Of a stretch of 64,000 nucleotides of DNA, positions 27,592 through 62,892 are shown piece after piece. The stretch is taken from positions 9,400 to 73,399 of the forward strand of contig JAMOQH010000172.1 of NCBI GenBank assembly GCA_027064085.1, given 5' to 3'. The number at the start of each line of letters is the position of its first letter. The stretch's first letter is position 1. A program made the translations under genes and the position numbers. The DNA comes from a bacterium. GTDB lineage: Bacteria > UBP6 > JAFGXH01. The notes beneath the pieces were generated by a model, which saw only the letters and a list, made by a program, of their open reading frames with translations, ran no database searches and had not been told where the DNA came from.

Positions 27592-30030
27592 TTATTGAAT
27601 TTCTAAAACAGTATATGATAAATCATCATCTGGACCATATCCATTGTGTTTTTCTGAAGAGTTACTGAAAGTAAATTTCCTTTTGTCTCCATTGTTATTA
27701 AGAGTTCCCATAGGAGCATCTATATACTGCATTGAAGAATTATAGGTGTCAGCATCTTGAACTTCGGCATCAGGAAGGTCAATATGGTCAACTAAGTCGT
27801 TACCAGTAAGAAGAGCGGTATCCGTTACGCTAGGAGCATAAGAAGTTAATGGTTGAACACCGTCATACCAATATCCATTGTATCTATCACCCGATTTTGA
27901 CCACATGTGTCCAATTACATATAATTTATTGGCAACTAAACCTAAACCTTTTAAAAAATAACCAGCAATTTCATCTGTTCCTTTTCCAGAATAGTAAAAT
28001 AAAGACCAATCCATCGCACCAGTATCTTTATTAGCTTTAATTAAATATCCGTCACCAAATTGAGTATCATAACCTACTATTCCGTTGATTTCACCTATGC
28101 CAACTCTTCCTCCAACATATACTGAACCACCTAGGTATCTTATTGTGTATACATTGTTTTTTTGTCCAGTACTTGCATTTTCATTCCCCCAAATAATAGA
28201 GCCATCTGTATCAAATTTTAGAAATGTAAATGATGTTTGAGCTCCTCTAACATCTAGAGCTGCATAAACCTTTCCATCTTCATCTATATCCATAGAATTA
28301 ATATTAGTACCAACACCGCCATCAACTGATTTAACCCATTCAAGCTGAGGGTCTTGAGTATTTACTGAATTAACCTTCATAAGCATTGCACTTCCACCCA
28401 TAGAACCACCCATATAGGCATTACCATTATTATCTACTTTTAAACAAAATGCTCTGTCATTTTCCATGTTAGTTAAGTCAAATGCTTTGTTAAAATAAAG
28501 AGAACCATCGGATTTATTTAATGCTAAAAACATTACTGCTGCATTATCTAGAGTTGAACCAGCAACATATACGAAATCACCTTTAACATCTACTGCATAG
28601 GCATCAGCCCTTTGCCAAGCAATTTGACTACTAGCAAATTTAGGACGCCATACTTTTTGCCAAATAATTGAACCATCAGCAGGATTTAGTTTTATTATTA
28701 AAGCAGCATAATTACTTCCAGAGCTTTTTGTTGTAACTCCAACAACATAAATATTTCCCTCTGCATCCATAGTTATAGAATTACTAGAGCCTCCACTTTC
28801 ACCATTTTGACCTGGGTCAATACTTAAATCATGTTTAGGTCCATACCATACTTTTAACCAGCCTAAGCTTCCATCTGCTTTGATTTTTCCAATAATAATA
28901 TCATTATTAAATCCATCTGCTCCTGCTATCATTTTATCATTTCCATAAAAGTATGTATTACCTTGAGCATCTGTAACAGATCCACTAATCATTTCATCTA
29001 AGTCTGCTCCACCTAATACTTTATCCATAACTGTTCTTGTTGGAGTAGAAAAGTTAGCATCACTTCCACCTTCTCCAGTTAAATGAAGTACAAAGGTTTT
29101 GTCTGTATTGTAGGTAATGGTTAAAGTTGCTGTTCTTAGATGAGATGCAACTGGATAAAATTTTATTCTAAAATCTAATCTATCATTTGCAGGAATAACC
29201 TCATCATTAATTTCTAATTTGTTGTCACCTATATTACCTTCTAGTAAAGTAAATTCTTCTTCCATTACTCTATCACCATAACTTAAAACCATACTATTTA
29301 TAGTAACAGGGCTTGCTTCATCATTTAAAATACCAACTAAAAGAGGATACTTACTAAATAAAGCAATAGAGCCATGAACATTTGTTGGAATTGTTACTGT
29401 ATCATTATCATGAAATTCAACAGTTTCAGCTAAAAGATGAAAAGGGGCAGGGTTTGAAGTTCCACCTTCACACTCAAAAGTAGTTTCATTACAAGTTTTA
29501 CCAATTGCTGTACAATCTTGAATTGTTGTCCAAGAGTTACCACTTGTTCCACAAAGTTGCACTTTATTATTATTACATTTTCTTTCGCTAGGGGTACATT
29601 CTTGTGTATTTTCTTCACATACAAAAGTTGTAGTATTACAAGTTTTGTTGCTTGTGGTACAATCTTCTGTTACATTCCATGAATTAGATGTACATGTTTC
29701 AATTTTATCACCATTACATCTTTTTTCATTATCTGTACAAGTAATTTCTGCTACACATTTACCTGCATCGCAAGTAGGTTTTGTAGAATCTTTACAATCT
29801 GCATTTGTTGTACATTCTGGTTTTGTATCTGCAACACAATTATGTTGGTCATTACAGATTTCATCTGTTTTACAATCAGATTTTGTTGCACATTTTCCTG
29901 TTGCTGTTTCGCATTTGTCAACATTACATGTTTGCCAATCTGCACAAGCAGGGTCACATTTGTTTTCATCATCGTTACCACATGCCACTATAAATAATGA
30001 CATAATTAGCATAAAAAAAGCTATTCTCAC
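27592..30030 (-). CDS. Propeller-like lipoprotein with Cys-rich N terminus, paralogue A
   Basis: 812 residues. Lipobox F-I-V-A-C near residue 17. Residues 20-195 are a Cys-rich region made of short modules: a D-W-Q-T-C/GKC/D-C module first, then repeats of the type C-x-x-x-E-R-x-C-N-x-x-x-x-x-x-C. After that come an ASH-like domain (about 200-330) and the same propeller-type region as paralogue B. GTG start at 30030, with AGGAGG four bases before it. The pair lies in tandem with 56 bases between and is likely a duplication in which one copy gained or lost the Cys-rich anchor part. Confidence 0.82.
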   Translation of the reverse strand: MRIAFFMLIMSLFIVACGNDDENKCDPACADWQTCNVDKCETATGKCATKSDCKTDEICNDQHNCVADTKPECTTNADCKDSTKPTCDAGKCVAEITCTDNEKRCNGDKIETCTSNSWNVTEDCTTSNKTCNTTTFVCEENTQECTPSERKCNNNKVQLCGTSGNSWTTIQDCTAIGKTCNETTFECEGGTSNPAPFHLLAETVEFHDNDTVTIPTNVHGSIALFSKYPLLVGILNDEASPVTINSMVLSYGDRVMEEEFTLLEGNIGDNKLEINDEVIPANDRLDFRIKFYPVASHLRTATLTITYNTDKTFVLHLTGEGGSDANFSTPTRTVMDKVLGGADLDEMISGSVTDAQGNTYFYGNDKMIAGADGFNNDIIIGKIKADGSLGWLKVWYGPKHDLSIDPGQNGESGGSSNSITMDAEGNIYVVGVTTKSSGSNYAALIIKLNPADGSIIWQKVWRPKFASSQIAWQRADAYAVDVKGDFVYVAGSTLDNAAVMFLALNKSDGSLYFNKAFDLTNMENDRAFCLKVDNNGNAYMGGSMGGSAMLMKVNSVNTQDPQLEWVKSVDGGVGTNINSMDIDEDGKVYAALDVRGAQTSFTFLKFDTDGSIIWGNENASTGQKNNVYTIRYLGGSVYVGGRVGIGEINGIVGYDTQFGDGYLIKANKDTGAMDWSLFYYSGKGTDEIAGYFLKGLGLVANKLYVIGHMWSKSGDRYNGYWYDGVQPLTSYAPSVTDTALLTGNDLVDHIDLPDAEVQDADTYNSSMQYIDAPMGTLNNNGDKRKFTFSNSSEKHNGYGPDDDLSYTVLEIQ

Positions 30031-43263: not shown

Positions 43264-43878
43264 ATGAACATTTTATTAACTATAGTTGGTATTTTTTCTT
43301 TTTTATTGATTATCTCCTGTGGTGATAGTTCAAAAACTGAATCTAAAAAAGAGTGTAACCCTAAATGTAATACATGGCAAATTTGTGATAGTAGTCAAAA
43401 ATGTATTCTTTTAGCGGGAAGGTGTTCTGATGACTTAGATTGCAAAGATAATACGGAGAATAAAACTATTTGTGATTTAAGTAAACATGAATGCATAGAA
43501 AAAGTTTTGACATGTAATGAAAATAAAAAAGCATCTGATTTTAAATTAGCTAAAGATGAATGTGGTGAATTAACCAAATGCGATGATAGTTATGATTGTG
43601 CTGATAATCAAAGATGTGAAAATTTATTTATAGAAGGTGATACAAATAATTACACTCAACCATGTTGTATTGAAGGTTTAAGAGGCTGTAAAAAAGTTGG
43701 TGAGCCTTGTGAAAATGAATTTGATTGTGAAAGTGGTTTATGTATAGCTCGAGGAGATGATGAACAACACTATTGTTCTAAAAAATGTGAGCCAGAAGAT
43801 AATGATTGTCCTAATCCTATTACTGAGTGTGCTGATTTATGGGTCTTAAATGCTTGTGTTGTGCCTAAATCCAAATAA
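43264..43878 (+). CDS. Small Cys-rich lipoprotein with WQxC/GRC module
   Basis: 204 residues. Lipobox L-I-I-S-C near residue 19. The mature protein has about 24 Cys in short modules; the first reads C-x3-C-x2-W-Q-I-C ... C-x5-G-R-C-x4-D-C and is shared with the lipoproteins at 27592-30030 and 53690-55072. Later modules (G-E-P-C-x5-D-C-x4-C) resemble EGF/Dickkopf-like spacing. It begins two bases after the NifX-like gene. Role unknown, presumably on the cell surface. Confidence 0.8.
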   Translation: MNILLTIVGIFSFLLIISCGDSSKTESKKECNPKCNTWQICDSSQKCILLAGRCSDDLDCKDNTENKTICDLSKHECIEKVLTCNENKKASDFKLAKDECGELTKCDDSYDCADNQRCENLFIEGDTNNYTQPCCIEGLRGCKKVGEPCENEFDCESGLCIARGDDEQHYCSKKCEPEDNDCPNPITECADLWVLNACVVPKSK

Positions 43879-46342: not shown

Positions 46343-47836
46343 TTAATATATAAAGTCTTCTGTTAAATTATTATTTTTTATTTTAATTAGTCCTAATTCA
46401 TTCATATAATTTAAATAGGTCATTAAATCACTTTTAATATTTTTTGCTCTGACATGTTTAAAGTTTGCTCTTTTAATAAAAAATTCAACTGCATCAATTG
46501 ATTTATTAAATTCTCTATAAGAATAGCCTGCAACTTTTCTTGGATTTTTATTTGTATAGTCTATAGCTTTTTCAAGCTCTTCTAGAAAAACTTTTACATG
46601 TTCTGGATAATTTTTTACAATTTCGCTTTTAAATATAATTCCTGCATTTGGTAATTCTTTTAAATCATTATGATATTTTTTCCAAATAGAGCCGTAATCA
46701 AAAAGTTCTTTTACATTTGGGTTTCCAAATAAAGAAAATGATGCTTCAGGTTCTCTTAATAAAGCTGTTTCAATTTCTTCATGAATAAGAGCTTTTGATA
46801 TGTCTTCAGGTCTACCAAAACCTTTTTTATCTTTAATGCCATACTCATAATTGAAATCTTCAGGGTTAATTCCAGACTTTTGCATTAAATATGAAGTTAT
46901 TGCATAAGGAGGAGCCGCTTTTAGTAAAGGTAAATTTATATTTGTTCCCTTTAAACCTTCAAAAGAATCTACATTATATTTATTTGATAAAACTTTAAAA
47001 TTATCCCAAACATCAACTGATACTAATTTTAAATCTGTTCCTGTTGCAAATAATTTAGAAGAAGCAATAATTGCAGAAAATGAAATATCAGCCTTACCAC
47101 TAACCATCCAACCTAAATGCTTTTCTGTTTCGTCCCATACTTTTATCTCTGTAAAATTAAAATATTCAGCAAGTTTTTTAGAGCGTTTCATTAATGAAAA
47201 TATAGGTATTGCAATAGGTGTAGCTGCTTGTAATACAACATCTAGCCTTTTAACTGTACTGTTGGCATAAGGATTATCATCATGTTCACATTTTTCAACT
47301 TGATTAAGTTTTACTTCAAGAATTTTAGATCTATGAAAAAAGACATGATATTCATCATCTTTCTCTTTTATAGTATAATATTCAAAGCCTCTTGCTTCAA
47401 TAATAGGTAAGAGTGGTCTTGGCTCAAATGTTTGTATCAATTCAAAGCCATCTCCTTCTTTCAAAGTATCTGCTTTAGCCATAATTTCGTCAAATGGATC
47501 TTCTAAACTTTTTCTTACATCAAGTATTTCAAAGCTTTTACCAAGCATCCATTCTGGTAATTCTTTTGGTTTTTCCTCATTAACTTCTTCTGTTAAATTA
47601 TCTAATTCAGATTTATATTCTCCTTCTCCAACTGTTGTATTTATAAATTGTAGTAGTTCATTAATATCTTCTTTAGCAACACGAGCGACATCTTTGATTT
47701 TTGCCCATTTAGATACGACTTTAAATAAAACAGGGTTATTTAATCTTTTAAACCTTGAGTTTCTTTCAACAAGTTTCTCTCTTAGTTCTGGATATTTTTC
47801 TAAAAGACTTGCTATTTTATCATTTTTACTAATCAT
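46343..47836 (-). CDS. DUF1858 / DUF2249 / substrate-binding-protein fusion
   Basis: 497 residues without a signal peptide, so cytoplasmic. Order: a DUF1858/ScdA-N-like helical domain (about 1-62, K-Y-P-E-L-R-E-K-L-V-E-R-N ... L-A/V-x-I-K-D-V-A), a DUF2249-like TusA-type fold (about 100-172, I-L-D-V-R-K-S ... L-L-P-I-I-E-A-R-G-F-E-Y), and a periplasmic-binding-protein-like domain of the NMT1/NrtA kind (about 190-480, G-W-M-V-S-G-K-A-D-I-S-F-S and E-P-E-A-S-F). ATG 47836 follows GGAGGA; TTG 47860 is rejected. Related DUF1858/DUF2249 proteins are tied to nitrite, sulfur or hemerythrin-type stress metabolism; the ligand is unknown. Confidence 0.72.
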   Translation of the reverse strand: MISKNDKIASLLEKYPELREKLVERNSRFKRLNNPVLFKVVSKWAKIKDVARVAKEDINELLQFINTTVGEGEYKSELDNLTEEVNEEKPKELPEWMLGKSFEILDVRKSLEDPFDEIMAKADTLKEGDGFELIQTFEPRPLLPIIEARGFEYYTIKEKDDEYHVFFHRSKILEVKLNQVEKCEHDDNPYANSTVKRLDVVLQAATPIAIPIFSLMKRSKKLAEYFNFTEIKVWDETEKHLGWMVSGKADISFSAIIASSKLFATGTDLKLVSVDVWDNFKVLSNKYNVDSFEGLKGTNINLPLLKAAPPYAITSYLMQKSGINPEDFNYEYGIKDKKGFGRPEDISKALIHEEIETALLREPEASFSLFGNPNVKELFDYGSIWKKYHNDLKELPNAGIIFKSEIVKNYPEHVKVFLEELEKAIDYTNKNPRKVAGYSYREFNKSIDAVEFFIKRANFKHVRAKNIKSDLMTYLNYMNELGLIKIKNNNLTEDFIY

Positions 47837-47887
47837 TCTTCCTCCAAATAATAAATTCAATGAATAATGAAATCCATTTTCAATATT

Positions 47888-47915
47888 ATTATAGTTACTA
47901 AAAGTTAAATGTCAA
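47888..47915 (-). promoter_or_regulatory. Sigma-70 promoter of the DUF1858/DUF2249 fusion gene
   Basis: On the minus strand TTGACA (47915-47910), 16 bases, consensus TATAAT (47893-47888). Both hexamers are perfect, which predicts strong basal expression. Confidence 0.75.
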
Positions 47916-53689: not shown

Positions 53690-55072
53690 ATGAAGTATTT
53701 TTTTCTACTTATACTTATTTTCTTTGTTTCATGTGCTGAAACTACTCAAAAAACAGGTACAGAACCTGGAGTATTAGGCGGTAAGTGTTTTACAAATAAT
53801 ACTTGTAATAGTGGATTAATTTGTGAAGATGATAAATGTATTGAAGATAAATGTATAAATAAACAATGTGGAGATGAATGGCTAGAATGTAATCAAGAAA
53901 CTGGTAATTGTGATAAATTAAAATCAGGATTTTGTGCAGTAAATACAGATTGTAATACAGAAGCCAATGAAGTTTGCAATTCAGAACATCATTGTGAAAT
54001 ACCTAGAAGCGATTTATGTAAAAATATTGATTGTTCTAGTGATGTAAATTCAGAATGTAATTCTGAAACTGGTAATTGCGAATGTAAAAGTGAATTTCAT
54101 AAAGGGGTAAGCGGTATTTGTCTTTATAATACAAAAGAAGTAAACTGTCAAAAGCCAAATATAGAAAATTCAGAATATACTGATGCAACAGTTACTGTTG
54201 AATGGAATACAGATACACAATCATGGAATAATACACCTATATGCGAATGGAGTTGCTTGGATGGATTTTATAAAAAATCTTTAAGTAATGGTGAGGCTAA
54301 GGAAAACTATACTTGTGAACCTTGTTCATGTAGCGAATGGCAAACATGCTCTGATGCAGGGGATTGTACTTTAACAGTAGGGCGTTGTTCAACTAATAGT
54401 GATTGTGAAACAGGAAAGGAGTGCGATACAAATCATAACTGTGTAAACCCAGCAAGTCCATGTGAAGGTATTGATTGTGGCGGTAATGGAACATGTGTTG
54501 TATCACAAAATAATCTTGCTTTTTGTGATTGTAATGATAATTACTATGATGATGGAGCATTACATTGTGTTAATCCATGTGAAGGCAAAACTTGTAGTGG
54601 TCATGGAACTTGTAGCTCTACAACAATTTTAAATGCTCATTGTGAATGTGATGATAATTATTTTGCAGATGGATTTAATTGTATCTCTCCATGCACAGGG
54701 CATTGGGACTGTACTACAGGAAATAATGTTAATATAGATGACGAAAGAGAAACGACTACTCCGCCTCCAGATGAACGCCCAAGAGGTGTTTGTACTGCAG
54801 AAACTGTTAATACTCCTATTTGTGATTGTATAACTAATTATGAAGACCCTGATAATGATTTGATTTGTACTCCTGTGGATCCTTGTAATGGGGCTTGTAA
54901 TACTTGGGAAACCTGTAATTCTGGAGTTTGTGAAGCAAAACCTGGAAGATGTAATAATATCGCTGATTGTGACAACAATTCATGCACAAGAAAAAACTCT
55001 TCTGTTTCTCCACCTCCAGAGTGTATATGTGATACAGATACTCATTATTGTGTACCATTTGATGCTCAATAA
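53690..55072 (+). CDS. Cys-rich EGF-like lipoprotein with two WxxC/GRC modules
   Basis: 460 residues. Lipobox F-V-S-C near residue 15. The mature protein has more than forty cysteines. EGF-like segments (G-x-G-T-C-x-x-x-x-x-x-x-C-x-C-D-x-x-Y) are clear around residues 265-330. Two copies of the shared module are present: C-x-C-x2-W-Q-T-C ... G-R-C ... D-C near residue 210, and C-x3-C-x2-W-E-T-C ... G-R-C ... D-C near residue 405. GGGGG precedes the ATG. Function unknown; a surface adhesin or matrix component fits. Confidence 0.8.
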   Translation: MKYFFLLILIFFVSCAETTQKTGTEPGVLGGKCFTNNTCNSGLICEDDKCIEDKCINKQCGDEWLECNQETGNCDKLKSGFCAVNTDCNTEANEVCNSEHHCEIPRSDLCKNIDCSSDVNSECNSETGNCECKSEFHKGVSGICLYNTKEVNCQKPNIENSEYTDATVTVEWNTDTQSWNNTPICEWSCLDGFYKKSLSNGEAKENYTCEPCSCSEWQTCSDAGDCTLTVGRCSTNSDCETGKECDTNHNCVNPASPCEGIDCGGNGTCVVSQNNLAFCDCNDNYYDDGALHCVNPCEGKTCSGHGTCSSTTILNAHCECDDNYFADGFNCISPCTGHWDCTTGNNVNIDDERETTTPPPDERPRGVCTAETVNTPICDCITNYEDPDNDLICTPVDPCNGACNTWETCNSGVCEAKPGRCNNIADCDNNSCTRKNSSVSPPPECICDTDTHYCVPFDAQ

Positions 55073-59173: not shown

Positions 59174-59635
59174 TTATTTTTTTATTTTCTTAGATGCTTC
59201 TTTTACTGATTTCATAATAGGAATATATCCCGTACATCTACACATATTACCTTCAAGAGCTGTTTTAATTTGCATATCTGATGGATTAGGAACTTTATCT
59301 AGTAATGCTTTAGCACTCATCAACATTCCAGGGGTACAAAAACCACATTGAATAGCACCATGTTCAACAAATGACTCTTGTAATTCAGGAGCAGATTTCT
59401 CTAGGTTTTCTACGGTTTCTATAGTTGCTCCATCAGCTTGAGTAGCCATTACTAAACAAGAATTAACTGCTTCACCATTCATAATTACTGTACAAGCACC
59501 ACATTCTCCAACTCCACAACCTTCTTTTGTTCCAGTTAAGGCTAAATCTTCTCTAATTAAGTCTAGAAGTCTTAAATTTGATTTTACTTCTAGTGTTCTT
59601 TCTTCACCGTTTATATTTATTGTTATTTTATTCAT
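59174..59635 (-). CDS. [2Fe-2S] subunit of a xanthine dehydrogenase family enzyme
   Basis: Electron-transfer subunit of a molybdenum hydroxylase (CoxS/XdhC-type small subunit). 153 residues. Plant-type [2Fe-2S] motif C-G-V-G-E-C-G-A-C near residues 40-47 with the fourth Cys in N-S-C-L, and the second, helical cluster motif C-G-F-C-T-P-G ... C-R-C-T-G-Y near residues 98-136. The start overlaps the end of the large subunit gene by four bases, so they are co-translated. Confidence 0.93.
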   Translation of the reverse strand: MNKITININGEERTLEVKSNLRLLDLIREDLALTGTKEGCGVGECGACTVIMNGEAVNSCLVMATQADGATIETVENLEKSAPELQESFVEHGAIQCGFCTPGMLMSAKALLDKVPNPSDMQIKTALEGNMCRCTGYIPIMKSVKEASKKIKK

Positions 59636-62600
59636 TTTTCCTCTAATATGGTTAATAACGCATCTCTCAACATATTTTTAAAAACAGGTATTTTATATGG
59701 AGAAGACCATCTTCCTCCTATTTCTGATTCTAACTTTTCATCAAGCAAAGCAATAACTTTTTCTATTAAATCAGTTGTAAATTCTTTTCCTACTAAAAAC
59801 TCTTCAAGATTAGTTAATCTTTGAAATTTTGCAAAAACAGACCCAGGCATAATATATACTTCATCAATTTTATTGTTATCATCAAAAGACATCATAGTTG
59901 CAATGCTCATTCTTGTGATATTGAGTGCATTTCTTCTTCCTAATTTAAAGAAATATCTATAATACTTTTTGTCTTTAGGAATAGGAATTATTATTTGAGT
60001 TAGTATTTCATTTTCTCCAAGAATGTTTTTATATGAACCTAATATAAAATCAGATAATTTTACTATTTTACTACCCTCTGTTGATTCAATTTTAACACTT
60101 GCATCATATACAAACAATGAAGGAACTGAGTCTGCACAAGGAGCCGCATTTACTAAGTTTCCACCAATAGTTGCTCTACTTCTAATTTGAGTTGAACCAA
60201 TTAAAGAAATTCCATCTATGAATAAAGGATAGTGTTTTTGTATAAGTTCATTATCAATTAAAGAGCTAAATGTGCAAGCAGATCCAATAACTATATTTCC
60301 ATCAATTTCGTTTGTGATTTTTAGTTCTTTAATTTGTGAAATATCTAATAATTCTTTATGATATTTTTCTTTTCTTAGTTGAACTATTACATCTGTACCA
60401 CCAGAAATAATCCAATGTTTTTTATTGCTCATTATTTCTAGGGCTTCTTTTAAAGTTTTAGCAACTGTAATGTTTATATCACTTACTCTATCTGTTGTTT
60501 TTTCAGGAACTGTTTCGCTATTTGATTTGGAATTTATATTTGGTACTTCACATCTTTCTTTAGAAACAACTTCTGATTGCCTAACTTTTTTAACTAAATC
60601 TTTACCTAAAAAGACTCTTTCTAGTGTTAAAGGGTTAGCATTATACTTCTTTTTGAGTGCGAATTTAACAGAGTTATTAATCGCAGCTGCCCCAAGTTCT
60701 AAAGTTGGTTCTCCTAGCGATTTAGCTCCATAAGGACCATATTTATCTGGATTTTCAACTAAAATAGCATCAATGTTTGGTATATCTTTAATAGTAGGTA
60801 ATAAATATTCATCAAAATTTTCTGATTTTACTATACCATTTTGAACAGAATAATTTTCTAATAATCCATATCCTATTCCTTGAGCTACTCCACCATAAAC
60901 TTGACCTTCGGCACCAGTTCTATTGATTACTCTTCCTAGATCATGAGCTGCAACCATATTAAGCATATCTATTTTACCTGTAGATGTATCAACTTGAGTT
61001 TCGGCAACTTGACAGCCATAAACATAAGTAAAATAGGCATTCCCTTGACCTGTTTCTTTGTCCCATGAAACATCAGGGGATTTCCACCAACCATAAGCTG
61101 AAGTATTAATGCCTTCGTTTAAAGTCATTTGAACAGCATCTGCAAAATTTATTTCTTGTTTTGTTTGTGGGTTAGTGATTTTATTATCAGCCCAAACAAG
61201 CTCAGTCATTTCAGTAACGTTAAATGTTTCTTTTATTACACTAAAAATATTAGCTTTTATTTTGTCACAAGCATCTTTAACTGCATTACCACCTGCAATA
61301 GTACCTCTTGAGGCAACTGTTGGTCCACCATCTGCAATATTAGCAGTCTGTGATGTTAAAAATTGTATATCTTCCATAGTACAGCCGAGGGTTTCTGCTA
61401 CAACCATTGCATAAGTTGTTCTTAAGCCTTGACCGTTTTCATTTAGTCCTGTCATAATATATGAGCTACCATCTGCTTGAACTGATACGATTGCACTAGT
61501 AGTATCAACTCCTTCAGCACCCAAAGAAGAACCACGGTAACTACATGAAAACCCTATGCCTTTTTTAAATCTTCTTGAAGTTTTATTGTATTTTTCAAAT
61601 TCTTTTAATTTATTATGATAATCAGCCTTTTCTAAAGCTATATCAATAACCTCCATAAGTGAAACTTTATGTTCTGTTAATGCCTGTCCACTTGCTGTTT
61701 TTGAACCTTGTTTAAAACCATTTATCTTTCTAATTTCATAAGGAGTTAAGCCTAACTCGTTAGCTAATTCGTCCATCATTGATTCTTGTGCAAAAATGAT
61801 TTGTGGACTACCAAATCCTCTAAAGGCAGCTGTATATGGTTTGTTTGTATAGGCTGCTTTAATGTCAGTTTGAACATTTTCTATTTCATAAGGGCCTGTT
61901 GCCTGAACTACAGAACGCCAAGTAACAAAAAAGCTTTGTGATGAATATGCTCCACTGTCTGCAACTATATTAATTTTCATAGCTTTGATTTTACCATTTT
62001 TATTAACAGCTAATTTATAATTTAAGAAATAAGGATGTCTTTTATATCCTTCTTTCATGGCTTGTTCACGAGTATAAGCTAATTTTACTGGTCTATTTGT
62101 TGCTAAACTAAGAGCAACTGCTCTACAAGCCATTACATTAATTATGTCATCTTTACCACCAAAAGAGCCACCCATAGTTGAGCCTATTATATTAACTTGA
62201 TTTAGTTTTAAATCAGTAAATATAGAAACAACCTTTCTGGTTGTAAATGGATTTTGAATAGAGCCATAAACATCAACTCCTTTAACTTGGTGATTGGGTT
62301 CTGCAATAACTACTTCTGGTTCTATAGCTGCATGTTCTTGATATGGAGTTTTATAATCTCTTTCAAAAATAATTTCATCATCTGATGATTCTGCCTTTTC
62401 AAAAGCTTCTTCTACATTACCTTTTCTCAAAGGATAATGAACAACTAAATTACTTTTATATTCAGGGTGAATCAATTTAGACTCAGGTTTTAAAGCTTCT
62501 CTAGGATCAAATATTCCTTGTTCTTCTTCATATTCTATTTCTATAAGGTCTGCTGCTTTTCTAGCTGTTTCTAATGTTTCAGCTGCGACAATAGCAATTA

Positions 62601-62892
62601 CATCACCTATAAAATGAACAGAGTCTTTTACTATTACATTATGGTCTCTTCTGATTGGACCCACTTTTTTAACAGTAGGTATATCATCATGTAGTAATAC
62701 ACTAACAACACCTTTTAAGTTTTTTGCTTTTGTAGTATCTATTTTTAATATTTTTCCAGCAGGAATATCAGCATGTCTAACTGCTGCATGTAGCATTTTC
62801 GGAAGATTAATGTCATCTCCATAAATAGCCTTTCCCGTAACTTTTTCATAGGCATCTAGCCTTTTTACTTTTGTTCCAACAACTTTTTTCAT
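59632..62892 (-). CDS. Xanthine dehydrogenase family: fused molybdenum and FAD subunits
   Basis: 1086 residues. Residues 1-760 form the molybdopterin-binding large subunit: V-T-G-K-A-I-Y-G-D-D-I near the start, G-S-F-G-G-K-D, A-F-R-G-F-G-S-P-Q, and the catalytic-Glu motif G-A-K-S-L-G-E-P near residue 725. A hydrophilic linker (about 765-800) leads to an FAD domain of the CoxM type (about 805-1086: I-S-G-G-T-D, A-T-I-G-G-N-L-V-N-A-A-P-x-A-D). Usual enzymes have separate genes or the order Fe-S, FAD, Mo in one chain, so Mo-FAD with a separate Fe-S protein is unusual. Substrate cannot be told: purine or other N-heterocycle or aldehyde oxidation. Confidence 0.9.
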   Translation of the reverse strand: MKKVVGTKVKRLDAYEKVTGKAIYGDDINLPKMLHAAVRHADIPAGKILKIDTTKAKNLKGVVSVLLHDDIPTVKKVGPIRRDHNVIVKDSVHFIGDVIAIVAAETLETARKAADLIEIEYEEEQGIFDPREALKPESKLIHPEYKSNLVVHYPLRKGNVEEAFEKAESSDDEIIFERDYKTPYQEHAAIEPEVVIAEPNHQVKGVDVYGSIQNPFTTRKVVSIFTDLKLNQVNIIGSTMGGSFGGKDDIINVMACRAVALSLATNRPVKLAYTREQAMKEGYKRHPYFLNYKLAVNKNGKIKAMKINIVADSGAYSSQSFFVTWRSVVQATGPYEIENVQTDIKAAYTNKPYTAAFRGFGSPQIIFAQESMMDELANELGLTPYEIRKINGFKQGSKTASGQALTEHKVSLMEVIDIALEKADYHNKLKEFEKYNKTSRRFKKGIGFSCSYRGSSLGAEGVDTTSAIVSVQADGSSYIMTGLNENGQGLRTTYAMVVAETLGCTMEDIQFLTSQTANIADGGPTVASRGTIAGGNAVKDACDKIKANIFSVIKETFNVTEMTELVWADNKITNPQTKQEINFADAVQMTLNEGINTSAYGWWKSPDVSWDKETGQGNAYFTYVYGCQVAETQVDTSTGKIDMLNMVAAHDLGRVINRTGAEGQVYGGVAQGIGYGLLENYSVQNGIVKSENFDEYLLPTIKDIPNIDAILVENPDKYGPYGAKSLGEPTLELGAAAINNSVKFALKKKYNANPLTLERVFLGKDLVKKVRQSEVVSKERCEVPNINSKSNSETVPEKTTDRVSDINITVAKTLKEALEIMSNKKHWIISGGTDVIVQLRKEKYHKELLDISQIKELKITNEIDGNIVIGSACTFSSLIDNELIQKHYPLFIDGISLIGSTQIRSRATIGGNLVNAAPCADSVPSLFVYDASVKIESTEGSKIVKLSDFILGSYKNILGENEILTQIIIPIPKDKKYYRYFFKLGRRNALNITRMSIATMMSFDDNNKIDEVYIMPGSVFAKFQRLTNLEEFLVGKEFTTDLIEKVIALLDEKLESEIGGRWSSPYKIPVFKNMLRDALLTILEEK

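Follow-up and report, generated by a model that had tools for sequence, protein, structure and literature searches.

A putative cytosolic substrate-binding-protein fold fused to DUF1858 and DUF2249 domains in about five bacterial lineages

Substrate-binding proteins (SBPs) are mostly known as exported receptors of transport systems. Where their fold moved into the cytosol, that is, in Thi5, in MqnA and MqnD, and in NrtC and CmpC, each case became a new enzyme or a new regulator. NrtC and CmpC provide the precedent for cytosolic SBP-like regulatory domains (PMC11349869): an SBP fold constitutes the C-terminus of a cytosolic protein, is fused to an ABC ATPase, is tied to the uptake of nitrate or bicarbonate, and has been proposed to play a regulatory role. 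A second point of reference is DrpB of Thermus thermophilus, a cytoplasmic protein consisting of one DUF1858 and two DUF2249 domains; when DrpA and DrpB are lost, nar and dnr are expressed independently of nitrate (PMC6282519). DUF2249 genes have also been found to be induced during denitrification in haloarchaea (PMC11218638).

Here we describe a bacterial gene in which DUF1858 and DUF2249 take the place that the ABC ATPase holds in NrtC and CmpC. It lies in a stretch of 64,000 nucleotides, referred to in the following as the window, with these features:

46343..47836, minus strand: fusion gene, 497 amino acids, DUF1858-DUF2249-SBP fold; the architecture recurs in other genomes
47841..47845, minus strand: ribosome-binding site GGAGG, 4 nt before the ATG of the fusion gene, as read from the sequence
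47888..47915, minus strand: sigma-70-type promoter TTGACA-16-TATAAT, 12 of 12 positions, the only perfect match in the window
47651..47833, minus strand: DUF1858, residues 2-62 (Pfam PF08984, E 1.2e-13, 51.4 bits, cut-off 32.2)
47330..47524, minus strand: DUF2249, a TusA/SirA-like fold without the TusA cysteine, residues 105-169 (Pfam PF10006, E 3.3e-13, 49.7 bits, cut-off 29.5)
47258..47323, minus strand: linker holding the sole cysteine, residues 172-193 (pLDDT below 50)
46346..47248, minus strand: SBP-fold domain with invariant cleft residues, residues 197-497, from predicted structure and conservation

The frame runs uninterrupted over 497 codons from the ATG at 47836 to the stop at 46343, in agreement with the coordinates given in the original prediction. 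A frameshift joining two genes was looked for and did not occur in the window gene, and an origin of the fusion by frameshift or chimera formation is ruled out by the one open frame together with eight other genomes exhibiting the same architecture. Likewise, a phage origin was discarded, there being no PHROG match. It had also been proposed that a perfect -35/-10 promoter drives the gene alone. The gene does appear to constitute a single-gene unit, because its upstream neighbour is transcribed divergently and its downstream neighbour convergently, and the promoter match is complete, with a 16-nt spacer, and ends about 50 nt ahead of the ATG; however, 0.31 perfect matches are expected per shuffled 64 kb of the same make-up, and since 25 of 100 shuffles likewise contained at least one, the match is plausible at chance level and suggestive only. 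The neighbours of the fusion gene in the window are gidA, a pilin-like gene and a lipase-like gene, and not a nitrate-respiration cluster. Carrier genomes hold one copy of the fusion each, and no neighbouring genes are common to distant carriers.

Profile searches placed DUF1858 and DUF2249 above their curated Pfam cut-offs, while the SBP part stayed below threshold with every sequence model, i.e., NMT1 (17.5 bits; cut-off 20.5), VitK2_biosynth (17.2 bits; cut-off 26) and SsuA_fam TIGR01728 (26.4 bits; cut-off 163.5, hence about six-fold short). No enzyme family of Pfam or NCBIfam reached its cut-off for the C-terminal part. A search of the PDB with the single window protein yielded chance-level matches only, and 2fi0 is weakly similar to DUF1858 by sequence. 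An AlphaFold2 model based on six aligned family members (mean pLDDT 76, pTM 0.59) nevertheless clearly predicts an SBP fold for the C-terminal part: the modelled residues 197-497 match solved SBPs with Z-scores of 24-26.5 over 272-285 aligned residues at 2.8-3.5 Å, the best match being 3hn0 (Z-score 26.5, 272 aligned residues, 2.8 Å), and the modelled domain resembles PqqT, SsuA, NrtA, Thi5, MqnD and the cytoplasmic regulatory domain of CmpC. The fusion of DUF1858 and DUF2249 with an ABC-type substrate-binding domain, which had been recognized in the original prediction, is thus borne out, for the third domain by modelling.

That the protein lacks a signal peptide, as had been stated, is equally well founded. 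Neither a signal peptide nor a lipobox was found; the best hydrophobic mean of any 19-residue stretch within the first 60 residues is 0.64, compared with about 1.0-2.8, and mostly about 2, in transporter SBPs, and the N-terminus of the fusions is occupied by DUF1858 or by a ferredoxin domain. Permease or ATPase genes adjoin the fusion neither in the window nor at the loci L013, L031, L033, L062, L063 and L064, and the window protein itself contains no ATPase domain (Pfam).

The architecture had been called unusual, as it indeed is. The fusion was found in at least nine genomes from about five bacterial lineages, namely that of the window and eight others, which comprise one genome of the same phylum (G012), G071, G126, a metagenome-assembled genome of Deltaproteobacteria (L012, identical to G386) and four genomes of one further phylum (103 genomes surveyed) that, judged by gene content, is probably Thermotogota. 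Within the window's own phylum only 2 of the 28 genomes examined carry it. Six of the nine fusions possess an N-terminal [4Fe-4S] ferredoxin domain of the Fer4_13 type, which is missing from the window copy, and most contain two DUF2249 domains, although Pfam sometimes misses the first because of its divergence; a single DUF2249 is present in the window protein. When 36 SBP domains were placed in a tree, the nine from fusions came out as a single clade (100/100) on a long stem, within which the six ferredoxin-bearing fusions constitute a clade of their own (100/98). Because the fusion of G012 branches with those of G126 and the Thermotogota-like genomes and not with the one of the window, this sequence comparison suggests that the fusion has been transferred horizontally between phyla. 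A search of the open literature yielded no prior description of the DUF1858-DUF2249-SBP architecture. What appears to be new is the way in which the parts are combined and distributed among lineages, along with the ferredoxin-bearing variant and the altered pocket, while each part taken singly belongs to a known family. Only in one genome (G426; L062:5134-7010) is the fusion interrupted: two overlapping frames encode it, the first of them including the ferredoxin, apparently owing to an assembly error or a recent frameshift.

Conservation within the SBP domain points to a remodelled pocket. Across all nine fused domains 53 residues are invariant, and 30 of these lie in nine-residue stretches at the C-terminal ends of strands, where 15.7 are expected (p 5e-6, a value that is optimistic because conserved residues cluster along the chain). 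In the SBP fold these strand ends line the cleft, and the cleft position of the invariant residues follows from that topology. Thirteen of the invariant residues are polar or charged (Q203, T206, E236, T237, E238, H240, S254, D278, N279, R342, R361, E364 and N397), and none of them is present in more than 2 of 27 transporter SBPs, whose corresponding positions are mostly apolar, glycine or proline, or small polar. In view of the 53 invariant residues and the 13 peculiar to the fusions, the predicted cleft thus seems to have been retained among the fusions and changed relative to transporters.

The N-terminal half of the protein is homologous to DrpB: a profile of this half matches the entire length of Thermus DrpB (hhalign probability 99.9, E 1e-33). 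Both proteins exhibit DUF1858 followed by DUF2249, are cytoplasmic (for the window protein as predicted) and lack a DNA-binding domain. DrpB, however, has two DUF2249 domains, no SBP domain and a gene in the nar cluster, downstream of the nar genes, whereas the window protein has one DUF2249 and an SBP domain, with no nar genes beside it. Stand-alone DUF1858-DUF2249 genes adjoin genes for hemerythrin/DUF438, COX1-like, FeS_assembly_P, radical SAM and protoglobin proteins, and DUF2249 genes occur in nor/nirK clusters. Structurally, DUF2249 has the TusA/SirA fold, with Z-scores of 8-10 (3lvj, 8.0; 3hz7, 8.6; 8k1r, 9.9), and the top match is the TusA-like domain of a thiosulfate importer complex. 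In contrast to the TusA/SirA sulfur carriers, however, the fusion is devoid of the sulfur-carrying cysteine: the position of the CPxP cysteine is a gap next to acidic residues.

The closest relatives found for the C-terminal half are SBPs of small ABC importers linked to NnrS, Hcp or [FeFe] hydrogenase, such as those of Paraclostridium (WP_247014037) and Sulfurimonas (WP_193112118). They share with the fusion W234, D250, W277, E362-P363, W385, P396 and G399, but are exported, are encoded together with a permease and an ATPase, and do not have the polar pocket residues of the fusion; the tree of 36 domains leaves the nearest transporter group unsettled. When 72,556 plasmid records were searched with the C-terminal half, only 19 matches were obtained at E 0.01. 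Among the annotated importers, genes for NnrS, NO reductase, hcp or hemerythrin adjoin in six of nine lineages (Paraclostridium, Sulfurimonas, Arcobacteraceae, Azospirillum, Nitratiruptor and Rhizobiaceae), the exceptions being a Pseudomonas importer with Crp/Fnr and ccoN nearby, Vescimonas with an adjoining hydrogenase-type regulator, and Rhizobium SL42. In a control with an unrelated SBP belonging to the same superfamily, none of eight matches lay near NO-defence genes, although one has a truncated hemoglobin gene 2 kb away. The comparison of 6/9 with 0/8 (Fisher p 0.007) is a lead and not a clean test, because the category was chosen after the first cases had been seen. Two rhizobia have the SBP gene together with two DUF2249 genes in one nor-nirK cluster. 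In four of eight genomes the SBP gene of a related importer is located no more than 4 kb from an [FeFe]-hydrogenase gene (chance about 5e-7 under uniform placement). Import of a thiamin-related compound by the sister ABC systems was considered and rejected, as neither a TPP riboswitch nor any other Rfam match reached the gathering threshold at nine loci.

Several importer loci deserve mention in their own right. SBP-permease-ATPase operons lie less than 4 kb from [FeFe] hydrogenase in four genera (L065, L066, L038 and G398:C2), one of which also adjoins a Rex-like gene. In Campylobacterota and Alphaproteobacteria, importers from the same SBP family repeatedly stand beside NnrS (L094, L095, L097-L100, L104 and L105), some with a TonB-dependent receptor. 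On a Paraclostridium plasmid (L093:1264-12687) the importer is accompanied by an acyl-CoA dehydratase activase-type protein, cupins, hemerythrin, ferredoxin and hcp.

At the fusion genes themselves such a context is missing, as nitrogen-oxide genes do not adjoin any of them. Hcp was not found in the genome of the window, G071, G126 or G386, and is thereby ruled out as a constant companion; the same holds for [FeFe] hydrogenase, which is absent from G071 and G386. Since molybdopterin oxidoreductases are missing in G077 and G126, nitrate reductase is missing there as well, and the two molybdopterin oxidoreductases of the window's genome look like other members of that superfamily, so that nitrate respiration of the host is not supported as the direct context. 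NnrS was matched in 0 of 28 genomes, in a search that had no working control. Each half, considered separately, does have relatives in clusters for nitrogen-oxide and low-potential redox functions. A link to NO hence constitutes guilt by association through the relatives of each half, as no nitrogen-oxide pathway is seen next to the fusion in its host genomes.

Based on the evidence collected here, the reading that we tentatively prefer, with a probability that we place somewhat below even, is that the window protein works in the cytosol as a ligand-gated regulator of the response to redox or nitrogen-oxide stress. The SBP clamp would close upon binding a small cytosolic metabolite that is polar or charged, and closure would be passed on to the DrpB-like module and alter the activity of a partner, in a manner modelled on the action proposed for DrpB on the nitrate regulators of Thermus. 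In the six members possessing it, the [4Fe-4S] ferredoxin domain might feed in a redox or NO signal as well. The importer family found beside NO-defence or hydrogenase genes may be the source of the SBP half, whose ligand may differ from that of the importers because the pocket has changed. Such a regulator fits the homology to DrpB, the isolated gene and the precedent of NrtC and CmpC, structures of which (9uai, 9uak and 8wm7) match the modelled SBP domain with Z-scores of about 22. Sensing inside the cell, as had been suggested in the original prediction, is plausible, while the proposed specificity for sulfonates is not supported, given the distance from the SsuA cut-off and a pocket peculiar to the fusion. 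On the other hand, the window protein possesses no DNA-binding or kinase domain, and this copy lacks both the ferredoxin and a second DUF2249; moreover, the remodelling of the pocket fits catalysis as well as sensing.

The pocket lends weight to the foremost alternative, namely that the SBP fold has become catalytic, as happened in Thi5, MqnA and MqnD, with the ferredoxin and DUF domains delivering electrons or docking partners. Apart from the 13 polar or charged residues and the enrichment of invariant positions at the cleft, this is consistent with the existence of cytosolic SBP-fold enzymes that resemble the model (Thi5 and MqnD, Z-score about 22) and with the ferredoxin domain of most members. 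However, those enzymes carry no fused DUF or ferredoxin domain, the fusion misses the cut-offs of their families as of every other enzyme family searched, no pathway genes are linked to it, and three of the nine members, including that of the window, are devoid of ferredoxin, so that we regard catalysis as somewhat unlikely.

A cytosolic carrier or chaperone, which would bind a metal, a cofactor or a metabolite and deliver it to a partner with an iron-sulfur or di-iron centre, much as in iron-centre repair, appears less probable still. The FeS_assembly_P and hemerythrin genes adjoining DUF1858-DUF2249 genes and the related importers beside [FeFe] hydrogenase would be in line with this function, and E236, E238, H240, D278 and E364 could form a candidate metal site; yet two fusion-bearing genomes have no such hydrogenase, and the fused pocket is unlike that of the transporters. 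That the protein carries or senses sulfur compounds or sulfonates, finally, is highly improbable in spite of the weak similarity to the SsuA family and the TusA fold of DUF2249, since the SsuA cut-off is missed so widely, the pocket residues depart from those of transporters, the TusA cysteine is missing and the one cysteine present, in the linker, is not conserved among the fusions.

Considering sensor and enzyme jointly, one may speculate, as a possibility to be held with reserve, that the fusions represent a new class of cytosolic SBP-fold proteins in which the clamp serves either as a redox-linked active site or as a sensor of NO or of a metal or metabolite, is wired to a DrpB-like module, in most members along with a [4Fe-4S] ferredoxin, and has spread horizontally among anaerobic phyla. 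The family is apparently another move of an SBP into the cytosol; its pocket is conserved between distant lineages, and it is readily connected with DUF1858 and DUF2249, both of them widespread and of unknown function. Its ligand, if found, would also bear on the importers recurring beside NnrS and [FeFe] hydrogenase, for whose substrate we found no description.

Elsewhere in the window, a xanthine-dehydrogenase-like pair is encoded at 59174-62892 on the minus strand, composed of a 2Fe-2S subunit and a molybdenum hydroxylase of 1086 amino acids; in G077 (L031) the gene of a similar enzyme is situated about 2.8 kb from the fusion, which is probably coincidental. Several lipoprotein-like proteins rich in cysteine, in which short Cys-Asp motifs recur, are encoded at 27592-30030, 43264-43878 and 53690-55072.
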